From the NCBI GenBank assembly GCA_027490195.1, contig JAIXYN010000058.1, positions 62,001-126,000 on the forward strand: DNA of 64,000 nucleotides. The letters run 5' to 3'. The DNA is from Verrucomicrobiaceae bacterium. GTDB taxonomy: Bacteria > Verrucomicrobiota > Verrucomicrobiia > Verrucomicrobiales > Verrucomicrobiaceae. The notes below the pieces were generated by a model, which did not search any database, had not been told where the DNA came from, and worked only from the letters and a program-made list of their open reading frames with translations. Both the position numbers and the translations under genes were made by a program. This document shows positions 12,597-27,195 of the stretch, one piece after another. The first letter of the stretch is position 1, and each line of letters starts with the position of its first letter.

Positions 12597-12615
12597 GTCC
12601 GCATTTGGCGACCGT

Positions 12616-14034
12616 ATGGAAAGGATGCGACCGCTTCTCTTCGCCCTCTGCACTCTCATTTCCACCATGTACGCGGCTGATCCCGCTCGTATTTTCAAGG
12701 CCGGAGCCGCCACCAGCAACATCACTCCCGAGCTTGGCAGCTCGATCAATGGGGGGTTTCAGGATGGCAAGGCGGTTTTCATCCACGATGAACTCAACGC
12801 ACGCTGCCTCGCGCTGGATGATGAGAAAACGAAGCTCGTGCTGGTGGTGGCAGACAGTTGTGTGATTGGCCGCGGTATTTTTGATGAAGCGAAGAAGATG
12901 GTGCACGAGGCCACGGCCTTGCCGTTGGAGAACATGCTTATGTCCGCTACGCATTCGCACTCCTGTGGTACCGCGCAGGCCGTGGGCCAGAGCGAGCCGA
13001 ACCCAATGTATCAGCGTTTCCTTGCCAGGCGCATCGCCGACGGCGTGCAGCGTGCGCTGAACAATCTCGCTCCCGCCAAAATCGCGTGGGGCAGCGTCAA
13101 TGTGCCGCAGCATGTGTACAATCGCCGCTGGAAAATGAAGCCCGGCGGCATACCTCCCACTCCGCACGGGGTCACGACTGATCAGGTGAAGACGAATCCT
13201 GGGATCAACAACTCGAACCTCCTTGAGCCCGCCGGCCCAACAGACCCGCAAGTGAGTTTCATCAGCTTACAATCAACGGAGGGAAAACCCATCGCGCTGT
13301 ATGCGAACTACTCGCTGCATTATGTGGGTGGTGTGGGCCCCGGCCATATTTCGGCGGACTACTTTGGTGCGTTTGCAAACCGCGTCGGTGAACTGCTCGG
13401 TGCAGAGCGGCTGGACCCGCCCTTCGTGGGCATCATGTCGAACGGCACCAGCGGCGACATCAACAACATAGACTTCCGTGGTGGTCAGGCCAAAGAGGGG
13501 CCGTATGGTCGAATCAAGATTGTGGCGAATGATGTGGCGCAGGCGGTCGCGGGTGCGTGCAAAACACTGACTTATCAAAACTGGGTACCACTGGGTGTCG
13601 CGCAGAAGGAGGTGAAGCTGGGCCTGCGCATTCCCACGAAGGAAGAAGTGGAGAAAGCAAGCGTGTTGACGAAGCAGTCGAAGCTCTTTCCACGCATGGA
13701 GACGATGGAGCAGGTGTATGCGCGTGAAACTGTGCTGCTGGCCGACTTTTCGAAGGAAGTCTCCGCGCCACTGCAGGTTCTCAAGATAGGCGAGCTGCGT
13801 GTCTCGGCGATTCCTGCCGAAGTCTTTGTGGAGATCGGTCTCGGATTGAAAAAGCGCCATCCGCAGACCTTCACGGTATCGATGGCCAATGCCTACCACG
13901 GTTATCTGCCAACGCCAGAGCAGCACAAGCTCGGTGGCTATGAAACCTGGCGTGCGAGGTCAGCGTGCCTTGAAGTCGATGCCTCGACGAAGATCGTTGC
14001 TGGGCTGGAGGAGTTGTTTTCGTCACTTCAATAA
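12616..14034 (+). CDS. secreted neutral/alkaline ceramidase-like enzyme (1)
   Basis: A 472-residue protein with a signal peptide (about 1-22, ending MYAADP). It matches the N-terminal domain of neutral/alkaline non-lysosomal ceramidases: GAATSNITPELG near the mature start, the metal-binding SATHSHSCG segment and NGTSGDINNIDF. These enzymes are zinc amidases that cleave N-acyl sphingosines, but the large family in Planctomycetota and Verrucomicrobiota may act on other amides or glycans. The ATG at 12616 is chosen; a second ATG at 12625 is possible. The C-terminal immunoglobulin-like domain of classical ceramidases is not evident. A ThuA gene starts 9 bases downstream. Confidence 0.78.
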   Translation: MERMRPLLFALCTLISTMYAADPARIFKAGAATSNITPELGSSINGGFQDGKAVFIHDELNARCLALDDEKTKLVLVVADSCVIGRGIFDEAKKMVHEATALPLENMLMSATHSHSCGTAQAVGQSEPNPMYQRFLARRIADGVQRALNNLAPAKIAWGSVNVPQHVYNRRWKMKPGGIPPTPHGVTTDQVKTNPGINNSNLLEPAGPTDPQVSFISLQSTEGKPIALYANYSLHYVGGVGPGHISADYFGAFANRVGELLGAERLDPPFVGIMSNGTSGDINNIDFRGGQAKEGPYGRIKIVANDVAQAVAGACKTLTYQNWVPLGVAQKEVKLGLRIPTKEEVEKASVLTKQSKLFPRMETMEQVYARETVLLADFSKEVSAPLQVLKIGELRVSAIPAEVFVEIGLGLKKRHPQTFTVSMANAYHGYLPTPEQHKLGGYETWRARSACLEVDASTKIVAGLEELFSSLQ

Positions 14035-14043
14035 TATCCTGTC

Positions 14044-14802
14044 ATGAAATCCATCCTGCTCTGCCTCGCACTGCTCACCTGCACCGCGTCTGCCGCGAAC
14101 ATCGTTATCATGACGGTCGAGGATCCCAACAATTATGAATCTCCGAGGACGATGCGTGAGTTCGCAGAGAAGGAGCTCCGGCCGCTGGGGCATCGCGTCA
14201 CGATCATCGATGGGGATAAGCCGCAGATGCATCACTTTGCAGGACTGGTAGAGGCGCTGAAGGATGCGGATCTGCTGGTGCTTTTCTCCCGCCGCCGCTT
14301 TCCGCCGAAAGAGCAAATGGCCGCGATTCGTGCACACCTCGCTGCTGGCAAGCCGCTGCTCGGCATCCGCACGGCGAACCATGCCTTTCTTCCCAAGCCC
14401 AATGAAGTCGTCGACCCGAACCTGGCTCCGTGGCCGGAATTCACACATGAAGTTCTGGGCGGCGAAAACACCGGCTATGAAATCAAGGGGCTGCCCTACG
14501 GTGTGAGCATCACTCCAGGTGCTGAATCAAGTGCGCTGGTCAAAGGTGTGAATGTGGCAAACATCCAAGGATATCAGTCGATGTACAAAGTGCTGCCACT
14601 GGCCGCCGATGCCACGCCAGTGCTCATTGGTACCGCTCAGGCCGGAGCCACCACACCACCACAACCGGTCGCGTGGACGCGCACTTACGGTGAAGGCAAA
14701 GCCCGCATCTTTTACACCAGCCTGGGTGCGCCAGAAGACATGCGCAGCGCCGATGTGCAGAGGCTGCTGCTCAATGCCGTTGCGTGGACCCTGCAGAAAT
14801 AA
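14044..14802 (+). CDS. secreted ThuA-domain protein (2)
   Basis: A 252-residue protein with a signal peptide (about 1-18, TASAA). The ThuA-type glutamine-amidotransferase fold starts at IVIMTVEDPNNYESP and includes LVLFSRRRFPPKEQM, the GIRTANHAF segment and FYTSLGAPEDM near the end. It is clearly paralogous to the gene at 17077-17847, sharing the RAHLA-GKPL core, which implies duplication inside this cluster. It sits between two ceramidase-like genes with gaps of 9 and 6 bases, so the three are very likely one transcript. The reaction is unknown. Confidence 0.85.
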   Translation: MKSILLCLALLTCTASAANIVIMTVEDPNNYESPRTMREFAEKELRPLGHRVTIIDGDKPQMHHFAGLVEALKDADLLVLFSRRRFPPKEQMAAIRAHLAAGKPLLGIRTANHAFLPKPNEVVDPNLAPWPEFTHEVLGGENTGYEIKGLPYGVSITPGAESSALVKGVNVANIQGYQSMYKVLPLAADATPVLIGTAQAGATTPPQPVAWTRTYGEGKARIFYTSLGAPEDMRSADVQRLLLNAVAWTLQK

Positions 14803-14808
14803 CGAATC

Positions 14809-16293
14809 ATGAAATTGATCTTCCTTCTCCTGCTCGTCAGCATTGCCACTGCCAGAGCTGAAATGCTCGCCGGTGTTGCCAAAGTTGATATCACAGACCG
14901 CACCGGTCCGGTGAATGATCCGTGCTTCGCCAAGGCGCTCGTGTTGAAAAGTGGCGGCACCACTGCGGTGCTGATCACACTGGATGCGGTGGCGGTGGGC
15001 GGCATTGGACGCGTCGGTAATGGCTTCATGGCCACCGTGCGTGCCGGTTTGCAGGAGTTGGGCATTCCGCCTTCGAATGTCGTGGTCAATGCCAGCCACT
15101 GTCACGGCATCGTGCGTGGTGATCTTGAGCCGCTCGTCATTCAGGCGGTGAAAACGGCCATGCAGAATCTTGTGCCTGTTAAAACGGGCAGCGGCCTGGG
15201 CTCGGAGACGCGCATCAGCGAAAACCGTCGGCTCAAGATGAAGGATGGCAGCACGGTGGACATGCGCCGTGCGTACTCAATGCCGCGTGATGAGGCTGTC
15301 GCCAGCGTGGGCCCCATCGACCCGCAGGTCGGCCTGCTGCGGCTGGATCGTTCCGATGGTACATCCCTGGCCGTGCTCTATCAGTTCGCCTGCCATCCGA
15401 TCATGAATCCGCCGAGCAAGGGTTGTTCTGCAGACTATCCAGGCTATGCTTCCAAGGTCATTGAGGAGGCGCTCGGCGGCGGCGCGATGGCCTTCTTCGT
15501 GCAGGGCTGCGGTGGCGACATCAATCCAGTGCGCTACAAGGAAGTCACGCGTACTGCTGATGCCGAACCGCTGGGCACCATGCTTGGCGCGACCGTTCTC
15601 GCTGCAGCACGGAAGATCGAAACCAAAGGCGATGGCGTTCTTAAAGTGAGCAATGCCACCATCGCGGTGCCACGCGCCGCAGATTACACCGCACGCATCA
15701 GCCGCATTGACGAGGAGCAGAAAAAACTCCTGGCGGCGCTCAAGCCCACGAACATCAACTTCAAAAGCTTTCTGCCGCTGCTGCTCCAGCACAAGCTCTG
15801 GCCGGACACGCCATCGCACTACTCGCAGAGCTATCTCCACGATCAGGCTCTTGATCGGAAAGCCATCTTACAGCTCGATGCTGACAACCGCCTGCTGGTG
15901 GAGAATTATCTCTCGAACATCGAAATCATGGAGCGGCTCACACGGTTGAATGCAAACATGGCGCTGCTGAAAATGCATCTCAAACAAACCCAGGCAGCAG
16001 GTGAAAAGACGCTGGATGCCGAGGTCTGCGGCCTGCGTGTGGGCGATTTCAAACTGGTAACGTTTCCTGGAGAAGTCACCGTGCAGGTGGGCCTGAACAT
16101 CAAGAAGGCCGCCGGAGATGTGAATGCTCATGTCTCCGGCTACACCAACGGCTACATCTGGTACACCCCCACCGTGGAGCAGCGCCTCAATCCCGGCTAC
16201 GCCCAGGAAGACTGCGACACGCTGGTGGCACCCGAGTGGCAGAAGATCTTCGAGACAAAGGCGCTCGAAGTGTTGACCAACCTCGACCGATAA
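14809..16293 (+). CDS. secreted neutral/alkaline ceramidase-like enzyme (2)
   Basis: A 494-residue protein with a signal peptide (about 1-17, TARAE). Ceramidase-family hallmarks are GVAKVDITDRTG, the metal-ligand-like NASHCHG and FVQGCGGDINP. The pattern of residues differs from the paralogue at 12616-14034, so it is not a recent duplicate. Residues 270-390 form a helical insertion with alternating charged residues. Expected to be a periplasmic or outer-membrane-facing amidase; the substrate is unknown. Gaps of 6 and 8 bases link it to the ThuA gene upstream and the LamG-like gene downstream. Confidence 0.75.
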   Translation: MKLIFLLLLVSIATARAEMLAGVAKVDITDRTGPVNDPCFAKALVLKSGGTTAVLITLDAVAVGGIGRVGNGFMATVRAGLQELGIPPSNVVVNASHCHGIVRGDLEPLVIQAVKTAMQNLVPVKTGSGLGSETRISENRRLKMKDGSTVDMRRAYSMPRDEAVASVGPIDPQVGLLRLDRSDGTSLAVLYQFACHPIMNPPSKGCSADYPGYASKVIEEALGGGAMAFFVQGCGGDINPVRYKEVTRTADAEPLGTMLGATVLAAARKIETKGDGVLKVSNATIAVPRAADYTARISRIDEEQKKLLAALKPTNINFKSFLPLLLQHKLWPDTPSHYSQSYLHDQALDRKAILQLDADNRLLVENYLSNIEIMERLTRLNANMALLKMHLKQTQAAGEKTLDAEVCGLRVGDFKLVTFPGEVTVQVGLNIKKAAGDVNAHVSGYTNGYIWYTPTVEQRLNPGYAQEDCDTLVAPEWQKIFETKALEVLTNLDR

Positions 16294-16301
16294 CTATCTC
16301 C

Positions 16302-17060
16302 ATGAGAGCCACCCTCACTTTTTTGTTATGCGCCTGGACCTGCGGCGCATTGGCGGCTGATGAACTGCCCAAGACGCTCATGACCCTGCGCGGAAAACTG
16401 CTGGTCAGCGAAGATTTCACACCGCCGCTCGCGCCGGTCACGGGCAAGCCCGTTGGTTTTGCCAGCGGGTTTACCGGTTGGCGGTACAATTCGGGACCAG
16501 TTGGTGGAAAGTCCGGACAGTGGAAGACAGCCGATGGTTGCTTTACCGGCGCTGAAAGTCCTTCTGCCAACCATCCGGCAACAGCGTCGTTTGGTTTTCA
16601 ATTCACCGACGCCATCATTCAATGCGAAGTGCGGTTGAACGATGTGCCTGATGAGGGGCGCAAGTATCGGTCCCTCTTTGTGAAGGCGACGGATGTGAAG
16701 GACTATGTAATTTCGCTCAGCATCGGCCCGGGTGGTCTCTTTTTAACGCCGTATGATGCCGAGCGCATCAATCCCGCCACCAAGCAGAGAGAGAAGGGGA
16801 CGACGAGCCGTGTCCCGGCTCAAGTCAAACTCAACGAATGGCATACGGTGGTTCTGGAGATCAAAGGCGATGAAGTGGTGGGCACGCTCGACGGCAAGAG
16901 CACCACCTTGAGCAACCCGCTCATCAGCGTGGCCAAGCACAGCATCATGCTGGGGGCCGGCACTGAGGCCAGTTTCCGCCATCTGCGCGTGTGGGAAGCT
17001 CTTCCAAACCCAGACTGGGCGGCGGCCAAAGCGGCCCTTCAAGCGGCATCGAAACCCTGA
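16302..17060 (+). CDS. secreted DUF1080/LamG-like concanavalin-fold protein (1)
   Basis: A 252-residue protein with a signal peptide (about 1-19, GALAA). The pattern GKLLVSEDF, QFTDAIIQCEVRLND, KSTTLSNPLI and FRHLRVWEALP is that of the concanavalin-like 3-keto-disaccharide hydrolase/DUF1080 group, which is common in this phylum and thought to act on carbohydrates. The ATG at 16302 opens the signal peptide; an earlier in-frame ATG lies within the ceramidase gene. It sits inside the ThuA-ceramidase run. Whether it is an enzyme or a binding module cannot be told from sequence. Confidence 0.7.
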   Translation: MRATLTFLLCAWTCGALAADELPKTLMTLRGKLLVSEDFTPPLAPVTGKPVGFASGFTGWRYNSGPVGGKSGQWKTADGCFTGAESPSANHPATASFGFQFTDAIIQCEVRLNDVPDEGRKYRSLFVKATDVKDYVISLSIGPGGLFLTPYDAERINPATKQREKGTTSRVPAQVKLNEWHTVVLEIKGDEVVGTLDGKSTTLSNPLISVAKHSIMLGAGTEASFRHLRVWEALPNPDWAAAKAALQAASKP

Positions 17061-17076
17061 ACAGACTTCAACTCTC

Positions 17077-17847
17077 ATGAGCCTATCCTTTGTTTTTCGC
17101 ACATTGTTGTTCGTCGCAGCCGTCTTCGGATGGCAATTGCAAGCGGCGGAACCACCTCACATCGTCATCATGATTGGCGAGGAGGAATATCACACCTGGG
17201 AATCCCTGCCCGAATTTGCGGCCAAAGAATTGAAGACCGCGCCTTATCGCGTCACCATCGTTCAGGCGGACGCTTCGGATAAGAACCAGTTTCCTGGGTT
17301 CGTGGAGGCCATGCGTGATGCGGATCTGCTCTTCATCAGTGTGCGGCGGCGCACGCCGACGACGGAGGTCATGAATGCGGTGCGTGCCCATCTTGCCTCA
17401 GGCAAGCCGCTGGTGGGACTCCGCACGGCCAGCCATTGCTTTGCCCTGCGTCCCAGGGAGCCCGAGCCCAAGGCGGGTCTGGAGAAATGGCAGGACTTTG
17501 ACCCGCAGGTGCTGGGCGGCAACTACACCGGCCACTATGGCAAAGACGCCGCCACCATCAGCTTGGTTCCGGGTGCGGAGGAGCATACCATTCTGCGAGG
17601 GGTCACCGTGACGGAACTCATCGGACACGGCGGTCTTTACAAAAACACCCCGCTGAGGACCGGGACCACACCGCTGCTCATGGGAACGCTGCCTGGTGCG
17701 GAAACGGAACCGGTCGCGTGGACTCATAACTACGGCGAGAAAAAGTCCCGCGTCTTTTACACCTCGCTGGGGCATTGGGATGACTTCAAGCGGCCCGCAT
17801 TCCGGCGCCTTTTGCTGAACGGCATCGCCTGGGCATTGGAGAAGTAA
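17077..17847 (+). CDS. secreted ThuA-domain protein (3)
   Basis: A 256-residue protein with a signal peptide (about 1-22, LQAAEP). The ThuA core reads IVIMIGEEEYHTWESLPEF, FISVRRRTPTTEVM, GLRTASHCFALRPREP and FYTSLGHWDDF. It is a paralogue of the 14044-14802 protein with similar length and the same order of motifs. It is separated from the LamG-like gene by 16 bases and followed by a 131-base spacer before the SDR gene, so it probably ends this secreted-enzyme unit. Confidence 0.85.
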   Translation: MSLSFVFRTLLFVAAVFGWQLQAAEPPHIVIMIGEEEYHTWESLPEFAAKELKTAPYRVTIVQADASDKNQFPGFVEAMRDADLLFISVRRRTPTTEVMNAVRAHLASGKPLVGLRTASHCFALRPREPEPKAGLEKWQDFDPQVLGGNYTGHYGKDAATISLVPGAEEHTILRGVTVTELIGHGGLYKNTPLRTGTTPLLMGTLPGAETEPVAWTHNYGEKKSRVFYTSLGHWDDFKRPAFRRLLLNGIAWALEK

Positions 17848-17978: not shown

Positions 17979-18785
17979 ATGCGACTTCACGACCAGGTCA
18001 TCCTCATCACCGGCAGCACCACCGGCATCGGCGAATTCATGGCGCGCCGCTTCGTCGCCGAAGGCGCCAAAGTCATCCTGCATGGCCGTGACGCCGCACG
18101 TGGGGAGGCTTTGTGCCAGGAACTCGGCAAGGACAAGGCGGCCTTCTGCCAGGGAGACCTCGCGAATGCCGATTATCCTGCCAAGCTGGCGGCGGATGCG
18201 ATTGCCGCCTTCGGCAAGGTCGATGCTTTGGTGAACAATGCAGCGCTGACCAATCGCGCTAAAATTGGCGAGACGGATGCAGCCATGTTTGACCGCATCA
18301 TCGCCGTGAATGCCCGTGCGCCGATGCTGCTGATCCGAGCCTTGCTGCCCGAATTGAAAAAGAACCAAGGCGTGGTGCTGAACATCGGCTCCGTGCTCGC
18401 CCATTGCGGTCAGGCGAATCTGCTGGCCTACTCGATGTCCAAGGGCGCGCTGATGACGATGACGCGTAATCTGGCCGACGCACTCGGCACCGACCGCGTG
18501 CGCGTGAACCAGCTCAACGTGGGCTGGACGCTCACCGAAAACGAATACCAGGTGAAGCTCGGCGACGGACTCGGAGAAGGCTGGCCGGATCGTCTGCCTG
18601 CTTATGCTGTGCCAATGGGCCGTTTGCTAATGCCGGAAGACATTGCTGCTGCTGCCGTTTACTGGGTCGGTCGCGAAAGCTTTCCCGTCACCGGCACCGT
18701 GGCCGAGCTGGAGCAGTATCCGCTCATTGGCCGCTACACGAATCACGAAGGAGACCCTCTCAAACAACAAGACCACACCAACTAA
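17979..18785 (+). CDS. SDR family oxidoreductase
   Basis: A 268-residue cytoplasmic short-chain dehydrogenase. The cofactor motif TGSTTGIG (11-18), the NNA motif in VNNAALTN, the active-site Ser in IGSVLAH and the YSMSK catalytic pair are all present in the usual order. The family carries out NAD(P)-dependent oxidation of alcohols, often sugars or sugar acids. It sits 6 bases upstream of a fumarylacetoacetate-hydrolase-family gene, a pairing seen in L-fucose, L-arabinose and related sugar-acid catabolic routes, so a sugar lactone or acid substrate is a reasonable inference. The gap of 131 bases upstream suggests its own promoter. Confidence 0.9.
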   Translation: MRLHDQVILITGSTTGIGEFMARRFVAEGAKVILHGRDAARGEALCQELGKDKAAFCQGDLANADYPAKLAADAIAAFGKVDALVNNAALTNRAKIGETDAAMFDRIIAVNARAPMLLIRALLPELKKNQGVVLNIGSVLAHCGQANLLAYSMSKGALMTMTRNLADALGTDRVRVNQLNVGWTLTENEYQVKLGDGLGEGWPDRLPAYAVPMGRLLMPEDIAAAAVYWVGRESFPVTGTVAELEQYPLIGRYTNHEGDPLKQQDHTN

Positions 18786-18791
18786 CCAACC

Positions 18792-19649
18792 ATGAAATTG
18801 ATCCGCTTCGGCAACGCAGGTGAAGAGAAACCCGGCCTGCAACTTGATGATGGCCGCCGCATTGATGCGAGCGCCTTTGGCAGCGACTACGATGAAAAAT
18901 TCTTCGGGGGCGATGGTCTTGAACGTCTGGCCGCCTGGGCCAAGGCCAACGCAGCCACTGCACCGACGGTCGCATCCGGCACACGTCTGGGCCCGTGCAT
19001 CGCACGTCCGAGCAAGATCATCTGCATCGGTCTGAACTACAGCGACCACGCCAAGGAAAGCGGCATGCCGATTCCGGCGGAGCCCATTGTGTTTTTCAAG
19101 GCCACCAGCGCCATTGTCGGCCCGAACGACAACGTGGTCATCCCGCGCAATTCGAAGAAGACCGACTGGGAAGTCGAACTCGCCTTCGTCATCGGCAAAA
19201 AGGCCAGCTATGTCTCCGAAGAGAACGCGCTGAGCCATGTGGCAGGCTACTGTGTGCACAATGACTATAGCGAGCGCGAATGGCAACTGGAGCGTGGCGG
19301 TCAGTGGGTCAAAGGCAAGAGCTGCGACACCTTTGCGCCCATCGGCCCCTTCCTCGCCACTAGCGATGAGATTCCTGATCCGCAGAATTTGAAGCTCTGG
19401 CTCAAGCTCAACGGCAAGACCATTCAGAACAGCAGCACTGCGCAGATGATCTTCGGCGTGAAGACGCTGGTGAGCTACCTGAGCCAGTTCATGAGCCTGC
19501 TGCCCGGAGACATCATCACCACCGGCACGCCTCCCGGCGTTGGTCTCGGTTTCAAGCCTGAGCCGCTTTTCATGAAGCCCGGCGATGTCATCGAACTCGG
19601 TGTCGAAGGCCTCGGCGAACAGGGGCAGACAGCTGTCGCGGCTGCCTGA
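18792..19649 (+). CDS. fumarylacetoacetate hydrolase family protein
   Basis: A 285-residue enzyme. Family features are IGLNYSDHAKESG, the metal-ligand EVELAFVIGK segment, a variant of the NDxxxR box (NDYSERE), and ITTGTPPGVGLG. FAH-family members hydrolyse or decarboxylate beta-keto or 2-keto-3-deoxy acids using a divalent metal. The N-terminal 70 residues form the usual small lid domain. It follows the SDR gene by 6 bases and ends 25 bases before a strong terminator, so it closes the plus-strand run. The exact substrate (for example 2,4-diketo-3-deoxy sugar acid or ureidoglycolate) cannot be fixed. Confidence 0.88.
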   Translation: MKLIRFGNAGEEKPGLQLDDGRRIDASAFGSDYDEKFFGGDGLERLAAWAKANAATAPTVASGTRLGPCIARPSKIICIGLNYSDHAKESGMPIPAEPIVFFKATSAIVGPNDNVVIPRNSKKTDWEVELAFVIGKKASYVSEENALSHVAGYCVHNDYSEREWQLERGGQWVKGKSCDTFAPIGPFLATSDEIPDPQNLKLWLKLNGKTIQNSSTAQMIFGVKTLVSYLSQFMSLLPGDIITTGTPPGVGLGFKPEPLFMKPGDVIELGVEGLGEQGQTAVAAA

Positions 19650-19674
19650 ATTCATTCAAAGCTTTAACTTATCT

Positions 19675-19704
19675 GGAGGCCGTTCGTCAGAACGGCCTCC
19701 TTTT
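19675..19704 (+). terminator. Rho-independent terminator after the FAH gene
   Basis: A ten-base perfect stem (GGAGGCCGTT, 19675-19684) with its complement AACGGCCTCC (19691-19700), a six-base loop and TTTT at 19701-19704. It lies 25 bases after the plus-strand stop at 19649 and immediately before the convergent minus-strand gene ending at 19714. Confidence 0.85.
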
Positions 19705-19713
19705 ATACACCGG

Positions 19714-22700
19714 TCACTCCACCTTCAGCACCCCATTCATCACCATCCAGTGCCCCGGGAAGGTGCAGAGGTAGGGGTAGTCGCCTTTCTCTTTCGGGGC
19801 GGTGATATGAATGGTGAAACTGGACTGAGGATTCGTCATGTCCGTGTAGGCCAGGACGTCGTCAGAGTCGGGTACGTAGTGTTTCGCCAGACCCTGCGTA
19901 TCGGTGATCATGAGATTGGCGAGGTTGCCGATTTTTTGCAGGGTGCCGGGCTTGGCGAGCATCCAGTTGTGCGGCACCACGTCCGGGTTCTTGAAGACGA
20001 TGGTGAGCTTTTCGCCTGCTTTGGCGGTGAGCTGCTTCTGCACGTATTGCAGGCCCAGCGCGGCTTCGATGTCGAGTTCACGCCCACCCTCGCCTTTGGC
20101 CCATGGGTTGAGTTTGGCAGGCTTGGGTGCTGCGAGACCGATCTGTGCGGCGTGGTTGGTCTTCGCGATCTTGGCGTAGCCAGGGAACTCGGTGAAGGCT
20201 TCAGCCAAAGCATGAGCGGTCATGAAGATGTCGTGACCTGTGCTTACTTGGAGATGAATCTGACTCGCGGTGACGATCTGCGGGATTTCGAGGAAGAGTG
20301 TCTTGCCGCCGTCGAGCTTCTGCACGCTGCGCACTTCCAGCGGATCATGGCCGGGGGTGTCAGGATACTTAACGGAATACTCGGGCGAGCCGTACTGCGG
20401 GCCGTAACGGTAGTTCCAGCACTGCGCAAAGCAGGTGGCGGCATCGGCTTCTTTCACGGGTTGGTTGAAGCGCAGCAGCACACCGTTGTCGCGAGCTTCG
20501 AAGCCAATGGGCACGGGTTTCTCGCCACCGGTGAAGCGCACGCGTTGGAAGCAGCCGTCCTTGGGCGTGTAGCTGCCCCAGCCCTGCATGCCGTTGACGT
20601 AGAGATGCCCATCGTTGGAATTGAAGCGTGCGCATTGCGGGCCGGAGTCGAAGTTGCCGCTGATCTTCACTGAGGCTGCCTGCCAGCGACCCTTGACATT
20701 CTGCCGCATCACGAGCCATGCGCCGCCACCGCCGGAGGAGAGGTGAACAAAATTGCCATCGCCTTTGAGGGCTGACCATTTCTCGCTCGTGATGAAGGCC
20801 TGACTGCTCGCGCTATTGTCCTCGCCACGTGGCATGTACATCAGCACCGGCTCGGGCGGCTGGCCGTTCTTCGGACCCCCAGCACCGAAGTGGGCGCCGA
20901 GGTTGTGATCCTGCTCAATTTGGAAGATGGAGGAAGCAGGTGTCCAGTCGCCCTCCTGCCCGCTGGTGGTGATGAAGCGGCCATCTGGTGAGATGCCGAG
21001 ACCATCGGGGTTGCGGAAGCCGGTGCCTAGGACTTCGAGCTTGTCGCGGCCCGTGATGCGGCACACGCCTTGATTACCGGAGGCGAAATACCAGCGGCCT
21101 TCTTTGTCGGTTTCGAGCCCGACGATGAAGTCGTGACCGCCGGGAGAGGTTTGCATCGCGTTCGTGACGCACTCGTAGAAGTCGGCCTCGTCATCGCCAT
21201 TGAGATCGTGCAGGCAGGTGATCTGATCGCGACCAAGGACGTAGAGTTTGTCCTTCACAATCTTCATGCCCAGCGGCTGGTTGAGGCCGGTGGCGAAGCG
21301 CTTCCAGCGTACCTTTTCGAGTTTCTCGTCGATGCCTTTCACCAGCCAGACTTCGCCGGTCATGGTGGCAATGGCGGCAGTGCCGTCGCTGAAGAAATCA
21401 TGCGCGGTGATGAAGAATAGCGTGCCGTAGGGATTTTCGAAAGGCAGTTCAATGGTGTCGGTGGCGAAGGGCTGTTGGGTTCCGAGCTTGCCTTGGGTTT
21501 CGATCCACTGCGGCCATTGGGCGGGTCCGCCTTTGATGAAAGGTTTCAGATCGGTGTCAGTATGATCACGACCCGAATCGAGATTCTCTTTGCCATCGAT
21601 GGAATAAGAGAAAATGACCTTTTTGCCGTGCCGATAAAAACCATGATATTGGTGAGCAGGTAGTTTCGGCGTTTCCCATTGCCCAATTTTTTTGCCATCC
21701 ATAGTACCGCCACCCATGAATCCGTGGCGTGCATCGCCGAGCTTGATAAAGCCGCCAGACCACACGAGGGGAAATGAGAGCGTCTCCGGGTCGAACACCG
21801 CCGACTTGTCGTCAAAGCGGACACACACCGCTTTCGGAAGCGTCAGCCCAGCGCCTTTGAAAACGCAACTGAAGACCGAACCGTGGTCGCTCTTTGCATA
21901 GCGATTGTCCTTCCACGTCACCTGATCGTTCTGATTGCCCCAGTGGCCTTGCTGGCCGCCATCGAGGCCGGGGAACTGCGGGATCAGTTCGGGCAGGGGC
22001 TTCTGCTTCATGAACTGCAGCGCCTGCTTGCCGTAGAAGTCGAAGACGCGCTCACGATTCACAAATTCCTGCCAGTGGACGTTGTCCTCGGGATGCAGCG
22101 GTTTGAGGTCGGGTTTGAAGGCGGCGGGCGGCGGGGCCTTGGGCGGCATGAGTGCTTCGAGATGATCGAAGTCCCACAGGCCGATGGTGTTGTCCATGCG
22201 CAGACGTGGAGCGGTGCCTTTGCGGGGCTTCATGACGCCGCGTGCGATGCGTACATCGTCAATGAGGCCGTCACAGCCGATGCTGCCATCGACGAGACTG
22301 CCGAAAGCAATGCCTCCCGCTTTGGGGGTGCCGGTGATGGGTTGCACCGGCTTTTCGAAGACCTGTTTGCCATCAATCCAAATCACGACGCTCTTCTCGT
22401 CGATGCTGGCGAGGATGTCGTGCCACTGGCCATCGCAGACATTCACCTGCGAGTCGAAGTCACCACCGCGTCCGGGCATGAAGAGCGCCAGCGTACCACG
22501 CTTCGCATGCGTGTAGAGCTCCCAATGTGTGGCGGACGATTTGGCGTCCGAGGCGATGAGGATGTTGTAGTGATCTTTGCCAGTCAGCTTGGCGCGGCAC
22601 TCGATGGTGAGCGGCAGAGCGCGGAAGGGCTCGTTGTCCTGCTCAAAGTAGCTGCCCTTCAGCGCCTCGCCGAATTCCTTGTTCAGGGAGGGCACGCCCT

Positions 22701-23652
22701 CGCCGGTCATGGCAGGTTTGGTGATGAAGCTGGTGGCGGCTGGCTTGTCGCTCCAGGTGCGATACTTCGGCTTCGGGCCGGGAGGATTGTCGTCGAGCTG
22801 CGGCACCAGCCAGGCGAGTCCGTCGAGGTTGTCGAGCAGGCGGCCTTCAGCGTCTTCGTTGGTGTGGTTCAAAATGCCGATGGGGCCGCTGTAACCGCTC
22901 GCACGCACGATGCGCAGCACCTTCACATCCTCGGTGCCGACACCCAACGGGAGAATCTTGCGCCCTTTGGCCTCGCCCTCGATGTCCATGCCATTGAGAT
23001 TGAAGCAAAGCAGATGCGGCAGCATGCGCGGCAGGACTTTGGCGAGACGATCCAGATGGCCATGGCCGTGATGCAGATTGTATACGATGCCCACGTTCTT
23101 GATGCCTTTGGCCTTCAGCGCCTCCACGATGGCAATGGCGTTTTCCGGCTCGCCATACCAAGCGCCATGATTGTAGAGCGCGATCTGGCAGCCCAGAGGT
23201 GCAGCGGCTTCGCAGATCGGCTTCAAGCGTTCGACTTCTTTTGCCACACGGGCCTGCTGATCCGCCTCGTCTTTGACCTGTATCGCACCGCCGTTGCCAT
23301 TCACCCAGAGCTGCGGATGCACGCCGTGACGTTTGAAGAGCTCCAGCGTCTGCTTCGCCTCATCGTTGAGTGAAGTGGGGAACCACCAGCCCATGAGCTC
23401 GATGTGGTGTTTTTTGAGCGCGTTCAGTTCGTCATCCCACTGCGGGATATGCTCCTTGCGGTAGTCATAGACGAATTTCTTCACGCCCATTTTCTCCAGC
23501 ATGGCTGCGCGCTCTTCCGGGCCGCGCTTGCCCGCATCAAACGGCACGATGCACCACGCGGCGAGATTGGATTTGTCGAAGAGGCTGTCGGCTGCCTGAG
23601 ATTGACCAAAGGCAGACGCAAAAAACGCTAAGGCTAGGAGGCGGGGTAGCAT
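19714..23652 (-). CDS. giant secreted protein: TIM barrel, LamG, DUF6797-like, propeller and azurin-like copper domain
   Basis: A 1312-residue protein with a signal peptide (about 1-20, SQAAD). In order: a sugar-isomerase/AP-endonuclease-2-like TIM barrel (about 25-290), a LamG-like concanavalin domain (about 345-480), a DUF6797-like segment (about 520-760), a beta-propeller with PQQ/NHL-like blades (about 760-1030), a beta-rich linker, and an azurin/plastocyanin-like cupredoxin (about 1195-1312). The cupredoxin keeps likely type I copper ligands in PHNW and CTFPGHW followed by Met. These domains usually occur in separate Planctomycetota/Verrucomicrobiota proteins. The gene is last in a minus-strand cluster, 9 bases after the DUF6807 gene. 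Redox coupling to carbohydrate turnover is an inference. Confidence 0.8.
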   Translation of the reverse strand: MLPRLLALAFFASAFGQSQAADSLFDKSNLAAWCIVPFDAGKRGPEERAAMLEKMGVKKFVYDYRKEHIPQWDDELNALKKHHIELMGWWFPTSLNDEAKQTLELFKRHGVHPQLWVNGNGGAIQVKDEADQQARVAKEVERLKPICEAAAPLGCQIALYNHGAWYGEPENAIAIVEALKAKGIKNVGIVYNLHHGHGHLDRLAKVLPRMLPHLLCFNLNGMDIEGEAKGRKILPLGVGTEDVKVLRIVRASGYSGPIGILNHTNEDAEGRLLDNLDGLAWLVPQLDDNPPGPKPKYRTWSDKPAATSFITKPAMTGEGVPSLNKEFGEALKGSYFEQDNEPFRALPLTIECRAKLTGKDHYNILIASDAKSSATHWELYTHAKRGTLALFMPGRGGDFDSQVNVCDGQWHDILASIDEKSVVIWIDGKQVFEKPVQPITGTPKAGGIAFGSLVDGSIGCDGLIDDVRIARGVMKPRKGTAPRLRMDNTIGLWDFDHLEALMPPKAPPPAAFKPDLKPLHPEDNVHWQEFVNRERVFDFYGKQALQFMKQKPLPELIPQFPGLDGGQQGHWGNQNDQVTWKDNRYAKSDHGSVFSCVFKGAGLTLPKAVCVRFDDKSAVFDPETLSFPLVWSGGFIKLGDARHGFMGGGTMDGKKIGQWETPKLPAHQYHGFYRHGKKVIFSYSIDGKENLDSGRDHTDTDLKPFIKGGPAQWPQWIETQGKLGTQQPFATDTIELPFENPYGTLFFITAHDFFSDGTAAIATMTGEVWLVKGIDEKLEKVRWKRFATGLNQPLGMKIVKDKLYVLGRDQITCLHDLNGDDEADFYECVTNAMQTSPGGHDFIVGLETDKEGRWYFASGNQGVCRITGRDKLEVLGTGFRNPDGLGISPDGRFITTSGQEGDWTPASSIFQIEQDHNLGAHFGAGGPKNGQPPEPVLMYMPRGEDNSASSQAFITSEKWSALKGDGNFVHLSSGGGGAWLVMRQNVKGRWQAASVKISGNFDSGPQCARFNSNDGHLYVNGMQGWGSYTPKDGCFQRVRFTGGEKPVPIGFEARDNGVLLRFNQPVKEADAATCFAQCWNYRYGPQYGSPEYSVKYPDTPGHDPLEVRSVQKLDGGKTLFLEIPQIVTASQIHLQVSTGHDIFMTAHALAEAFTEFPGYAKIAKTNHAAQIGLAAPKPAKLNPWAKGEGGRELDIEAALGLQYVQKQLTAKAGEKLTIVFKNPDVVPHNWMLAKPGTLQKIGNLANLMITDTQGLAKHYVPDSDDVLAYTDMTNPQSSFTIHITAPKEKGDYPYLCTFPGHWMVMNGVLKVE

Positions 23653-23661
23653 AAGGGAAGT

Positions 23662-24630
23662 TTACTTGGTGTTGGAATAGTTGGTCCACTGGGCCTCGAT
23701 CCATTTCGCATCGGGTGCGCCGTCAAAGACGAGGATGCGGTATTTGGAGATGTAGGGTTTGCCAGGCTCGATGGACCAGTCGCCATCTTGAGATGGGGCG
23801 ATACAGAGCTGTGGGTTTTTGGGATTGAGGCGCAGGGGCTGCGGGAAGCGAAAGTTTGAAGGGTGAATCAGGATCACCATACCAGTCGGTGCGCCATCGA
23901 CCTGACCGCCGATGTGAACCCATTTGCCCTTGGTGGAATCGCCTTTGGCGCGATCATGACCCTCGCTGGTGAGCATGGTCACAGCATCGACTGGATTCCA
24001 GGCTAGGTTGCCGCGCACGCCGAGACCACCGTAGTGGTACTTCGGCAGCTTGAGCGGCTTGTTGCCCGCGCAGGTCTGCGTGCTGGTGAGGTCGATGATG
24101 TTGGCGGGTGTGCCATCGATCTCCTTCTGCGCCACCGCGACCTCCCATGTTTCATTGAGCACTTTCGTATCGGGCGTGTGGCTGTGATCGAGTAACAGAT
24201 GCTGGCTGATGAAGCCGCCGCCGTCAGCGCCACCCCAGCTCTTGTCCAGTTTGGCGAAACGCACCTCGGCGAGGATCTGGTCGCCGCTTTTGTTCTTGCC
24301 GTCGCCTTTGCCCTGGTTCCAGAAATCGGGATGTGAATCGCCGAACTCGGTCTTCGTCCACGCCATCCATATCCCGCGATGCCAGCGGTGATCTTCAGGG
24401 TGATTACCCGTGACGAGCTTGCCACTGGGCGAATACACCGGATGCAGATGCGCGCCATGTTTGAAAACAGCAGACACACCTGCGGGCACCTCGCCCGCCT
24501 CCATTTGGTAATCACAGATCGTCTGCCCACCGCTGCTGAAGTGAAGGATGGAACCGAGCTTTTCCACCTGGATTTCGGCGGCAGATGATTGTGCGACTAA
24601 GAAGGCAGCAAGGAGAAGGGTTGGCTTCAT
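23662..24630 (-). CDS. secreted DUF6807 (PmoA-like) protein
   Basis: A 322-residue protein with a signal peptide (about 1-18, QSSAAE). HPVYSPSGKLVTGNHPEDH and HRGIWMAWTKTEFG are characteristic of the DUF6807 family, annotated as PmoA-like but without demonstrated methane-oxygenase activity. The fold is a galactose-mutarotase-like beta-sandwich, so a carbohydrate role is plausible. It lies 22 bases after the amidohydrolase gene and 9 bases before the giant azurin-tailed gene, in one cluster. Confidence 0.8.
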   Translation of the reverse strand: MKPTLLLAAFLVAQSSAAEIQVEKLGSILHFSSGGQTICDYQMEAGEVPAGVSAVFKHGAHLHPVYSPSGKLVTGNHPEDHRWHRGIWMAWTKTEFGDSHPDFWNQGKGDGKNKSGDQILAEVRFAKLDKSWGGADGGGFISQHLLLDHSHTPDTKVLNETWEVAVAQKEIDGTPANIIDLTSTQTCAGNKPLKLPKYHYGGLGVRGNLAWNPVDAVTMLTSEGHDRAKGDSTKGKWVHIGGQVDGAPTGMVILIHPSNFRFPQPLRLNPKNPQLCIAPSQDGDWSIEPGKPYISKYRILVFDGAPDAKWIEAQWTNYSNTK

Positions 24631-24652
24631 GACGATGGAACGGAGCGGTGCC

Positions 24653-25930
24653 TTACAAACTCGCAGGCTTTACAAGCGTCCCGGCCTTCACCGCGCCGCC
24701 CTGAATGACTGCAAGGAGGTTGTCTCGGTTCTCGAGAATGGAGATGTCTTTGAGCACGTCGCCTTTGACCACGAGGACATCGCCCAGTTTGCCTGCTTCG
24801 AGGGTGCCGATCTCCTTCTCGCGTCCCATCATTTTCGCGCCGCCGAGCGTGGCGCACTTGATGGTGTCGAGCGCGGAGAAGCCGACGTAATTGACGAAGA
24901 AGGTCAACTCCTGGGCGTAGGTGCCGTGCGGCGTCCAGGCAAAGCCATAGTCGCCACCGAGCCCCAGGGTTCCACCGGCCTTGAGGACTTTGCGGCAGCT
25001 TTCGGCACCCGCTTCGAGAGTTTCCTGGTGGCCGTCCAGCACACGCTGGGACAGGCCGAACTCCTTGCCGCGCTGAACGCTGAAGAGCTCGAAGCCGAGG
25101 CCGGGGCACATCGGGACATTGCGCTTGAGCAGTAGTTCAAGGCATTCGTCGTCCATGAAAGTTCCATGCTCAATAGCATCATAACCAGCCTTGAGCGCAT
25201 TGCGGATGCCCTCGGTGGCACGGCAGTGGCCGGTGACTTTGAGTCCGTGATTGTGCGCCGTGGCGACGACGGCGTGCATTTCTTCGAAGGTCATGCACAG
25301 CGTGTGATGGTCGTTGATGTCGGGAGAAGCCGCATCGCCTGTGGGATAGGTTTTCACCCACTCGATGCCATCTTTGACGAGTTTTCTCACGGCAGTGCGG
25401 GCCTGCTCAGGGCCATTCACGATGAAGACAATGCCCTCCATGCCGATGCGGCGGTAGTCAGGATTCCAGTCCATCAGCCCACCTGCGCCGCAGATTTCAC
25501 GGCCGCTGGCGGTCAGGCGCGGCCCAGGAATCATGTCCTCCTCGATGGCCCTCTTCATCCACACGTCGATGTTATGCAGGCAGCCGCCGCTGCGCGCCGC
25601 CGTATAGCCGCATTCCAGCGCGGTCTTCGCATTCACAGCCGATTGCAGCGTGACGTATTCCACGGGGAACTTGATGTCGAGATCCTGCAATTCGGACACA
25701 TTGAAATAGGTGAGATGAATGTGCGCCTCGATGAGTCCGGGCATGATGGTGCCGCCACCAGCATCGATGACGCGTGCGTCAGGAGTAGCCTGCGGTGCAT
25801 CCGCAGCGGTACCGGCATAGCTGATGATGCCATCGGTGATGATGACAGCGGCGTTTTGAACTGCCGGTTTGCCCGTGCCATCGACGAGTTGGCCATTTTT
25901 GATGACAGTGGTGCCTGGTTGGAGCTTCAT
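24653..25930 (-). CDS. amidohydrolase family protein (imidazolonepropionase-like)
   Basis: A 425-residue cytoplasmic TIM-barrel metal hydrolase. The N-terminal beta-sandwich (IKNGQLVDGTGKPA) is followed by the metal-ligand HxH in IEAHIHLTYF, His ligands in GHCRATEG and IEHGTFMDDE, and the Asp in GGDYGFAWTPHG. These are the standard positions for subtype I/III amidohydrolases, which cleave C-N bonds in cyclic amides or dipeptides. No signal peptide is seen. It starts 12 bases after the AraC-type regulator gene, making it the first enzyme of the cluster; the natural substrate is unknown. Confidence 0.88.
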   Translation of the reverse strand: MKLQPGTTVIKNGQLVDGTGKPAVQNAAVIITDGIISYAGTAADAPQATPDARVIDAGGGTIMPGLIEAHIHLTYFNVSELQDLDIKFPVEYVTLQSAVNAKTALECGYTAARSGGCLHNIDVWMKRAIEEDMIPGPRLTASGREICGAGGLMDWNPDYRRIGMEGIVFIVNGPEQARTAVRKLVKDGIEWVKTYPTGDAASPDINDHHTLCMTFEEMHAVVATAHNHGLKVTGHCRATEGIRNALKAGYDAIEHGTFMDDECLELLLKRNVPMCPGLGFELFSVQRGKEFGLSQRVLDGHQETLEAGAESCRKVLKAGGTLGLGGDYGFAWTPHGTYAQELTFFVNYVGFSALDTIKCATLGGAKMMGREKEIGTLEAGKLGDVLVVKGDVLKDISILENRDNLLAVIQGGAVKAGTLVKPASL

Positions 25931-25942
25931 GGTGGAGAGATG

Positions 25943-26755
25943 CTATCGCTTCGTCCGGTGCCGGGATAGAACAGAAACGGCAGGGCGTGGAATATTCGCG
26001 GCAGCGTATTTGTCGCGATACGCACCCGGTGTGAGGCCCGTGACACGGCGGAATTCGCGGGTGAGGTGGCTCTGGTCCGCGAAGCCACAGCGCAGGCTGA
26101 CAGCGGCAATGGATTCTCGCGTATCGACCAGCAACCGGCAGGCGGTCTGAATGCGCAGGCGCTTCAGGTACTGCTGCGGTGGCAGACCATATTCGCGGAG
26201 GAAGCTGCGCTCGAAGGCGCGTACGGACATACCAACGCTGCGCGCCATGTCGGCATTCGTCACGGATTCACCGAGGCGGCGGGTCATGAGCGCGATGACG
26301 ACACCGAGACGGATGTCGCTGCGCTGATCAATCTGCGCAGCATCCAAGGCGCGTGTGATACCTGCCGTGCCGACGATGCGGCCTCGGGCATTGCAGACGG
26401 GTCGTTTGGTGGTGAAACACCATGCCGCTGTGTGATCAAAACGGCCGACGAGTTCCAGGCGGCCCTGCACCGTTTGCCCGGCCAGCACTGCTTCATCGCC
26501 CGCACGGAAATGCGCCGCGAGATGTGGAGGGGAGAGATCATCGTCGGTCTTGCCGAGTACTTCATCCAGCTGATGCATGTCGTAGTTCAGCAGGAAGGTG
26601 CGGTTCACCCAGAGGTAGCGGCGTTTGGCATCTTTGATCCATGCTTGCACGTCCGGCAGTACGTCGAAAAGATCGCGCAGGGCATCGACGGGGGATGTGG
26701 CGGCGGCTTTGGCTTTCACAAGGCGGGGACTAATCAGAACGTGTTTCGATGACAC
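25943..26755 (-). CDS. PAS-AraC family transcriptional regulator
   Basis: A 270-residue protein starting at GTG (26755). Residues about 28-135 form a PAS-like sensor (LPDVQAWIKDAKRRYLWVN, the GRIVGTAGITR end strand). Residues about 160-258 are an AraC/XylS double helix-turn-helix (MSVRAFERSF, then SLRCGFADQSHLTREFRR). The regulator probably senses a small molecule through PAS and activates the genes that follow it, an amidohydrolase, a DUF6807 protein and the azurin-tailed protein. This is inferred only from order and spacing of 12 bases. The region upstream (26756-26773) is short, so the control site must overlap the end of the neighbouring unit. Confidence 0.88.
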   Translation of the reverse strand: MSSKHVLISPRLVKAKAAATSPVDALRDLFDVLPDVQAWIKDAKRRYLWVNRTFLLNYDMHQLDEVLGKTDDDLSPPHLAAHFRAGDEAVLAGQTVQGRLELVGRFDHTAAWCFTTKRPVCNARGRIVGTAGITRALDAAQIDQRSDIRLGVVIALMTRRLGESVTNADMARSVGMSVRAFERSFLREYGLPPQQYLKRLRIQTACRLLVDTRESIAAVSLRCGFADQSHLTREFRRVTGLTPGAYRDKYAAANIPRPAVSVLSRHRTKR

Positions 26756-26773
26756 GCTGAATCATCCAGGCAC

Positions 26774-26805
26774 AAAAAAAGCGGAGCCGCATGCCGCAGC
26801 TCCGC
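26774..26805 (-). terminator. Rho-independent terminator of the small Cys-rich gene
   Basis: On the minus strand, GCGGAGC pairs with GCTCCGC (26799-26805 and 26781-26787) around an 11-base loop and is followed by seven T residues (the A-run at 26774-26780). It lies just after the stop of the gene at 26833 and before the regulator gene. Confidence 0.8.
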
Positions 26806-26832
26806 TTGAGGGGTGAAATGAAAAGCTGCCGG

Positions 26833-27195
26833 TTACTGGCGCACTTCCTTGATGTGCTTGTCTGGTGCGGCGTCGAAAGCAGCCTTGCTGGCGGCATCGG
26901 CAAAGGCGACCGGACGGGTGTAGGTCACGGTGATGGAAGGGTCGGATTTCTTCTTGCTCAGCGGGCACTGGCCTGCGGTGGCACTGAGGATGTTATTGAG
27001 GTAGCCCTTGGGAGCAGCGGTGAACTGGGCTTTGCAGCGGTTGCAGCAGACGGCCACGGTCTTCGTATAGGTGCTGGTGATGGCCGGGCTCGCGGGCTTG
27101 CCGGAAATGGGGCAGACCGTGTTCAGCGGTTCGGCGGCAGGGGAAAGGCCAGCCAACAGGCTGAGCGCGGCGATGAGGGTAAGGATGTGTTTCAT
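26833..27195 (-). CDS. small secreted protein with YHS/TRASH-like halves
   Basis: A 120-residue protein with a signal peptide (about 1-22, LSPAAEP). The mature part has two similar halves. The first has CPISGKPASP, then VAVCCNRCKAQF; the second has CPLSKKKSDP, then VAFADAASKAAF. The C-P-[IL]-S-x-K pattern followed by a Cys-rich turn recalls YHS/TRASH metal-binding modules. In the second half the Cys-Cys-x-x-Cys cluster is replaced by Ala and Asp, so only the first half could bind metal in the usual way. The ATG at 27195 is used because it opens the signal; fifteen in-frame codons upstream are rejected. It is isolated between the TPR gene and a terminator. Confidence 0.65.
   Translation of the reverse strand: MKHILTLIAALSLLAGLSPAAEPLNTVCPISGKPASPAITSTYTKTVAVCCNRCKAQFTAAPKGYLNNILSATAGQCPLSKKKSDPSITVTYTRPVAFADAASKAAFDAAPDKHIKEVRQ

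Follow-up and report, generated by a model that had tools for sequence, protein, structure and literature searches.

The window analysed here is a stretch of 64,000 nucleotides from a Verrucomicrobiaceae bacterium (assembly GCA_027490195.1, contig JAIXYN010000058.1, positions 62,001 to 126,000 of the forward strand), and all coordinates below are those of the window. Its subject is a gene on the minus strand that encodes, in a single uninterrupted frame, a sugar-isomerase-like triose-phosphate isomerase (TIM) barrel, a LamG domain, DUF6797, a propeller and a type-1 copper domain. An initial annotation, made from the letters alone, had proposed this domain order in one chain, and Pfam searches and structure models confirmed it. 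The features of the gene are as follows.

19714..23652, minus strand: fusion gene, 1312 amino acids, ATG start, stop included (open reading frame list)
23593..23652, minus strand: signal-peptide-like N-terminus, residues 1-20 (sequence inspection; boundary set by eye, without a predictor)
22783..23571, minus strand: xylose-isomerase-like TIM barrel, about residues 28-290 (Pfam and model; usual metal-ligand positions replaced)
22231..22650, minus strand: LamG (concanavalin-like) domain, residues 335-474 (Pfam)
21580..21801, minus strand: DUF6797, residues 618-691 (Pfam)
20527..21471, minus strand: propeller, about residues 728-1042, model residues 229-543 (AlphaFold2 model and conservation)
20158..20511, minus strand: conserved strand-rich segment 3' of the propeller, about residues 1048-1165 (model)
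19717..20088, minus strand: auracyanin/azurin-type cupredoxin, residues 1189-1312 (Pfam, PDB sequence match and model)

Laminin_G_3 (residues 335-474, 48.3 bits), DUF6797 (PF20601, residues 618-691, 44.9 bits for a cut-off of 24.9) and Copper-bind (residues 1196-1312, 37.7 bits) scored above their curated Pfam cut-offs, and AP_endonuc_2 (PF01261, residues 97-260) barely did so (31.7 bits for a cut-off of 31.1). The propeller gave only DUF7133 and TIGR02604 matches below cut-off by sequence but is clear in the structure model. Two AlphaFold2 models were built, each from a 54-sequence alignment. The first, of residues 20-500, had a mean predicted local distance difference test score (pLDDT) of 92.6 and a predicted template modelling score (pTM) of 0.63, and the orientation of barrel and LamG to each other is therefore uncertain; the second, of residues 500-1312, had a mean pLDDT of 89.9 and a pTM of 0.80. 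Taking the whole explanation developed below together, we consider it rather probable that the product is secreted and that it acts as a redox protein within the DUF6797-propeller family of Planctomycetes-Verrucomicrobia-Chlamydiae (PVC) bacteria.

Distribution of the fusion

The fusion protein found a match at E <= 0.001 in 49 of the 56 genomes searched (the window's own included), and in 32 of the 56, again with its own, a single aligned piece ran from residue 1-21 to residue 1311-1312 with no internal stop. A scan of named genomes, limited to the best 80 of 567 relatives, is the basis for the counts over 80 loci and over 64 full-length relatives in this text; both of its search patterns sit in the barrel, and barrel-less forms lie outside its measure. 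On named contigs, 64 of the 80 frames were full-length, starting by residue 60 and reaching residue 1310, and the other 16, which were short, were dropped. All 64 contain barrel and azurin-like domain, and 60 contain LamG, the others being L103, L105, L114 and L115. Their hosts are mostly Verrucomicrobiota (among them Prosthecobacter, other Verrucomicrobiales, Opitutae bins, and Verrucomicrobium sp. BvORR106 and BvORR034), with three planctomycete records, one each from Planctomycetales, Blastopirellula and Isosphaeraceae. One host, Brevifollis gellanilyticus NBRC 108608, now Prosthecobacter, is a cultured, named strain (locus L043).

The search for this domain order across genomes, which the initial annotation had suggested, thus recovered the same fusion in many Verrucomicrobiota and a few Planctomycetes, and the assembly is not the rarity it was taken for. 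The same counts bear on the possibility that an assembly or sequencing error had joined separate genes. Separate parts for such an accident exist, as barrels stand alone in relatives and azurins do so in the window's genome, but the 64 full-length frames in other genomes and the one-piece alignments in 32 genomes lead us to reject it, with next to no probability left to it.

The propeller family appears patchy across the phylum, since the propeller alignment found matches at E <= 1e-10 in only 4 of 145 genomes, its own included, and the DUF6797 profile in 24 of 288. Searches of open-licence papers gave no description of the fusion among the entries listed and no paper for DUF6797. Within its own lineage the fusion is commonplace, yet as a variant of the propeller-carrier proteins of PVC bacteria it is uncharacterised and informative.

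The copper domain and exchangeable electron carriers

The initial annotation had called the copper ligands of PHNW and CTFPGHW, plus a Met, intact, and the type-1 ligands H-C-H-M are indeed found in the correct order at the following codons.

19969..19971, minus strand: codon of copper ligand His1228 (PHNW)
19765..19767, minus strand: codon of copper ligand Cys1296 (CTFPGHW)
19750..19752, minus strand: codon of copper ligand His1301 (CTFPGHW)
19738..19740, minus strand: codon of axial copper ligand Met1305

Each of the four residues is kept in all 64 full-length relatives. The accompanying label "azurin" needs correction: by sequence and model the domain is nearer auracyanin A than azurin proper. 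Auracyanin A (2aan) was its best PDB sequence match and superimposed on the model with a Z of 18.6 (1.5 A over 118 residues, 36% identity), whereas the azurin equivalog TIGR02695 gave 41.9 bits, below its cut-off of 105.1. A tetrapeptide MGHN is reported to be near-perfectly conserved in azurins of most groups (PMC8779525); the window protein reads VPHN there, with P1227 in place of the Gly. The cupredoxin fold, the four ligands and the C-x4-H-x3-M loop are common to auracyanin A, azurin and the window protein, in which, unlike in those two, the cupredoxin is the C-terminal domain of a 1312-residue chain.

The window's genome encodes seven azurin-like domains, the fusion included, five of them in frames of at least 574 amino acids, and in relatives an azurin domain also terminates DUF7133 propellers with GDSL or ThuA domains. 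Adjacent long frames, each ending in an azurin domain, were seen at L138, L139, L148 and L150 (window's genome and two relatives).

Besides the fusion, the window's genome encodes two DUF6797 propeller proteins, and both bear a cytochrome c and not an azurin, one before and the other after the propeller. Among 43 DUF6797 frames, which are mostly the best-scoring DUF6797 places and not all of them, and include two from the window's genome, 28 contained CxxCH without azurin, 14 contained neither and one contained azurin without CxxCH, azurin-branch members being under-represented because their split DUF6797 match scores low. In five of the 14 carrier-less frames (L165, L186, L189, L190 and L194), a gene with five CxxCH motifs lies 11-81 bp downstream on the same strand, and such a pentaheme neighbour was absent from all 29 loci retrieved for the remaining classes. 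With the five-heme tails of L167, L168, L171 and L188, which are fused to the propeller, these neighbouring genes share 29-35% identity.

A propeller tree was calculated from 64 of 66 candidate rows, L161 being omitted for having no propeller hit and L033 for a score under the limit; long branches were flagged for L028, L170 and L191, and an unusual letter composition for nine rows. Twenty-one azurin carriers and one CxxCH carrier, L020, form a single branch of 22 rows (support 100/99). L020 consists of barrel, DUF6797 and propeller, followed, at the point where the azurin otherwise starts, by an 89-residue tail with CKACH and, further on, PPMPP. Taken alone, this tail aligns end to end through its residues 22-87 with cytochrome c-552 (1a56, E 0.0044) and matches other c-551/c-552 cytochromes weakly; its best-listed row, a connected cytochrome c555 trimer (E 4.9e-8), is the sum of three individually insignificant copies. 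In the planctomycete frames L103, L105 and L114, a CxxCH segment is found between barrel and DUF6797 in addition to the azurin, and it scores above cut-off as Cytochrom_C in L103 (25.7 against 21.3 bits) and as TIGR02603 in L114 (80.2 against 68.15), where shuffling produced CxxCH in 4 of 1000 sequences. These three chains may each contain a heme-copper relay. CxxCH occurs in 3 of 101 azurin frames, which, like a set of 89 six-block frames, include duplicates from overlapping genome sets. A planctomycete azurin hit recorded in PMC8779525 is judged there to be likely contamination or wrong annotation.

Comparative sequence analysis shows that the carrier module is interchangeable in this propeller family, which uses a mono-heme c motif at either end, a pentaheme unit that is fused or neighbouring, or an azurin. 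The azurin of the window protein is best read as an exchangeable electron outlet, swapped in for the heme carriers of the sister proteins, and its role in electron transfer is supported because sister propellers bear heme c in its place. Repeated pairing with redox carriers falls short of proof of electron flow but is hard to explain otherwise. The window protein has the propeller superfamily, DUF6797 and a carrier fused to the propeller in common with the CxxCH proteins of the PVC type (TIGR02604/TIGR02603; DUF6797, DUF7133), some of which likewise place LamG, ThuA or GDSL modules ahead of the propeller. It differs from them in that its carrier is a type-1 copper domain and no CxxCH is found in the chain; its propeller scores 27.9 bits with TIGR02604, whose cut-off is 122.2.

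Several observations weigh against this interpretation. The azurin model applied to the 43 frames was built from the azurin branch and may miss a divergent cupredoxin, and 9 of the 14 carrier-less frames had no pentaheme gene within about 4 kb on either side (less at contig ends). The L020 tail scores below the Pfam cut-offs (Cytochrome_CBB3, 16.4 against 27 bits; Cytochrom_C, 13.7 against 21.3), as does the CxxCH segment of L105, searched with Pfam only (Cytochrom_C, 14.2). Finally, the only assayed relative found, the verrucomicrobial Lac161_ORF7, which combines a TIGR02604 propeller with HEAT repeats and a fused cytochrome c, is reported to have hydrolysed lactose after purification and is described as a lactose hydrolase/beta-galactosidase (PMC5342196). 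Its kinship is by the TIGR02604 domain and not by sequence comparison, and it has HEAT repeats and cytochrome c where the window protein has barrel, DUF6797 and azurin.

Lac161_ORF7 gives some weight to the view that the window protein is a glycoside-cleaving enzyme whose cupredoxin merely senses, stores or shields copper or docks the protein itself, with no electron flow linked to turnover, and LamG and the sugar-type neighbouring genes would suit such an enzyme as well. We nevertheless hold this view to be unlikely, though worth serious consideration: heme c accompanies the propeller in several layouts and L020, on the azurin branch, has a cytochrome-like tail in place of azurin, which electron transfer explains better than a structural role does.

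Barrel, propeller and the direction of the proposed electron flow

The initial annotation had suggested that the protein could pass electrons from sugar oxidation to a periplasmic chain. This proposal is partly supported: a signal-peptide-like N-terminus is recognisable by eye, and comparison with heme c sister propellers favours the electron-transfer role, with the propeller as a likelier donor than the barrel. The barrel model matched IolI (1i60), UlaE (3cqi) and YcjR (6wn6) at Z of about 20 over approximately residues 22-293, in agreement with its PF01261 score. A profile alignment to MJ1311 (E 7.3e-5) places Y160, N192, N220 (or N218) and L261 at the metal-ligand positions, and an alignment to a 306-residue barrel of the same genome repeated Y160 and L261, the middle two positions being less certain. 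The four ligands E, D, H and E, which we take to be those of catalytic xylose-isomerase-like barrels, are thus replaced in the window barrel, which differs from IolI, UlaE and YcjR in this respect and in being fused to a redox chain. A canonical sugar isomerase was rejected on account of the replaced metal site, while the fold itself stands. To our knowledge, members of this superfamily are not oxidoreductases, and the suggestion that the barrel is the electron source found no support.

Stand-alone barrels with the motifs YNH and NLNGM occur in relatives (L143-L146), and in G025 one of them, L143, is the immediate upstream neighbour of the fusion gene. Within the fused barrel, H162, H194, H195, H197 and H263 are kept in 64 of 64 relatives and also in A1, collected before the pattern scan; for positions 191-197 and 214-222, the conservation among the 64 stems partly from the search itself, whose patterns were these motifs.

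The relatives carry two types of barrel, labelled by a gap at residues 92-93. The barrel tree separates them by one branch with support 100/100 (1 change), whereas the same label changes 10 times on the propeller tree, at least 7 of these changes being forced by well-supported branches of what is a quick tree with Shimodaira-Hasegawa-like approximate likelihood ratio (SH-aLRT) support only. L044 and the window protein are 91% identical in the propeller and 64% in the barrel; in windows of 60 residues, identity is 38-64% at centres 50-170 and 82-93% at centres 230-260. Most of the pairs compared also show poor conservation in the DUF6797 stretch (about residues 650-710), and low identity alone was therefore not taken as a sign of exchange; the two barrel clades were taken instead. 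The pattern suggests, as its simplest reading, repeated exchange of the 5' part of the gene, which encodes the first half of the barrel. Such exchange would alter specificity and would make the half-barrel a specificity module. The two versions of the first half (22783-23571; loci L036-L115) are old and spread over the propeller tree.

The propeller is the likeliest redox partner of the carriers, because it is the element common to all carrier forms, and would be a better candidate redox domain than the barrel. Its residues H840, R880, N881, P882 and R942 are each present in all 64 relatives. Its fold resembles the pyrroloquinoline quinone (PQQ) sugar dehydrogenases 2ism (Z 19.4; top of the Foldseek list at E 3.3e-12) and 3a9g (Z 18.8), and R880-N881-P882 aligned with the RNP motif of GSDH proteins. 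In addition, five Verrucomicrobia genomes are reported to contain a PQQ importer while PQQ synthesis genes are described as absent from them (PMC12124388). These points would fit a periplasmic aldose dehydrogenase that depends on imported PQQ and has its own azurin built in, a reading that we regard as quite unlikely. The fold is unspecific, the top structural matches of the propeller being PknD and designed Pizza propellers (Z about 21), and unrelated propellers score as high as the dehydrogenases. Four results further count against PQQ as the cofactor: the window protein had no Pfam GSDH (PF07995) match at E up to 1; comparison of profiles with GSDH proteins gave a weak match (111 columns, probability 16), in which nothing but the RNP motif aligned; none of 56 related genomes yielded a PqqC, no search having been made for an importer; and PqqE was not above cut-off in the window's genome, its model TIGR02109 passing in no control genome either. 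The PqqC model, TIGR02111, had no match in any of 14 named controls, so that the zero among 56 is informative only with the 387 genomes of the phylum that served as positive control, in which it was above cut-off in 6 and at E <= 0.001 in 8. Home-made PQQ is therefore unlikely, while import of PQQ is possible.

Nitrous oxide reductase also joins a propeller and a cupredoxin, and Foldseek ranked such reductases high for this part of the window protein (E down to 4.5e-11). With the five barrel histidines kept throughout, this might point to a reverse flow, in which the propeller or barrel would hold a reductive or oxygen-activating site that is fed with electrons by the cupredoxin. The Foldseek rows, however, had TM-scores < 0.3 with root-mean-square deviations of 26-30 A, that is, no common whole-chain arrangement, and a nitrous-oxide-reductase-like arrangement was rejected on these values. 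The conservation of the histidines is in part the product of the search patterns, and we judge reverse flow to be improbable.

In our preferred reading, that of a secreted redox protein with electrons leaving through the cupredoxin, the propeller, or a pocket between it and DUF6797, would oxidise a small, probably carbohydrate-like substrate; the electrons would pass to the fused cupredoxin and from there to a cytochrome or oxidase of the periplasm. LamG may hold carbohydrate, and the barrel may bind or process substrate or product and set specificity, which would account for the two scattered versions of its first half. A sugar is a plausible substrate. The AA12 quinohemoprotein pyranose dehydrogenase of Coprinopsis cinerea has a propeller fold. 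This enzyme offers a precedent for the principle of fusing a dehydrogenase to an electron carrier, but it is fungal and uses PQQ and a heme b carrier where the window protein has copper (PMC4332668).

A more specific and decidedly tentative version, which as a whole is rather improbable, is a saccharide machine in one chain. The propeller would oxidise a ring position of the sugar and the azurin would export the electrons, while the barrel, with LamG or with neighbouring 3-keto-disaccharide-hydrolase-like and DUF6807 proteins, would cleave or hydrate the keto-sugar; the half-barrel would pick the sugar and the carrier the respiratory partner. If true, it would provide a common function for the abundant, uncharacterised propeller-carrier proteins of PVC bacteria. 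Verrucomicrobiota and Planctomycetes are described as having many large multidomain carrier proteins of unknown reaction, a statement made of PSCyt-domain proteins (PMC5615132). In the family studied here, one propeller occurs with blue copper, a single heme or a set of five, either fused or encoded by a neighbouring gene, and the family includes a natural replacement of azurin by a heme-like tail and a substrate-side barrel in two exchanged versions. Electron transfer and substrate choice are thereby directly testable in recombinant proteins, including the one encoded by the cultured, named strain.

Gene neighbourhood

Three genes precede the fusion gene on its strand.

23662..24630, minus strand: DUF6807 gene, separated from the fusion gene by 9 bp
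24653..25930, minus strand: amidohydrolase gene
25943..26755, minus strand: PAS/AraC-type regulator gene

Of the 80 loci, 21 have a DUF6807 gene on the same strand as the fusion gene, which it precedes in 15 and follows in 6 (L045, L077, L079, L088, L089 and L095), and the window's genome has five DUF6807 matches in total. In 24 of the 80 loci the fusion gene has a relative of the amidohydrolase nearby, and in 22 one of the regulator; not all of either are orthologous, and some of the latter are distant (36-53% identity). Sulfatase, DUF1501, PSCyt2, AXE1 esterase and Gfo/Idh genes recur around other orthologues. In the region 19400-27000, no sigma-70-like promoter was found where chance alone would give 2.1, and the 7 terminator-like sites compare with a chance expectation of 6.5; both results are uninformative.

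Convergent with the fusion gene, positions 17979-19649 encode a short-chain dehydrogenase/reductase (SDR) and a relative of 2,4-didehydro-3-deoxy-L-rhamnonate hydrolase (370.6 bits for a cut-off of 500). As these rhamnose-type neighbours are convergent and each near the fusion gene in only 9 of 80 loci, they were not used to name the substrate. A cluster on the plus strand (12316-17847) includes two ceramidase-like genes, one at 14809 and a very weak one at 12316, together with two ThuA genes and, below cut-off, a 3-keto-disaccharide-hydrolase-like gene. Elsewhere in the window, a long frame of 1587 residues occupies positions 44101-48864 of the minus strand.

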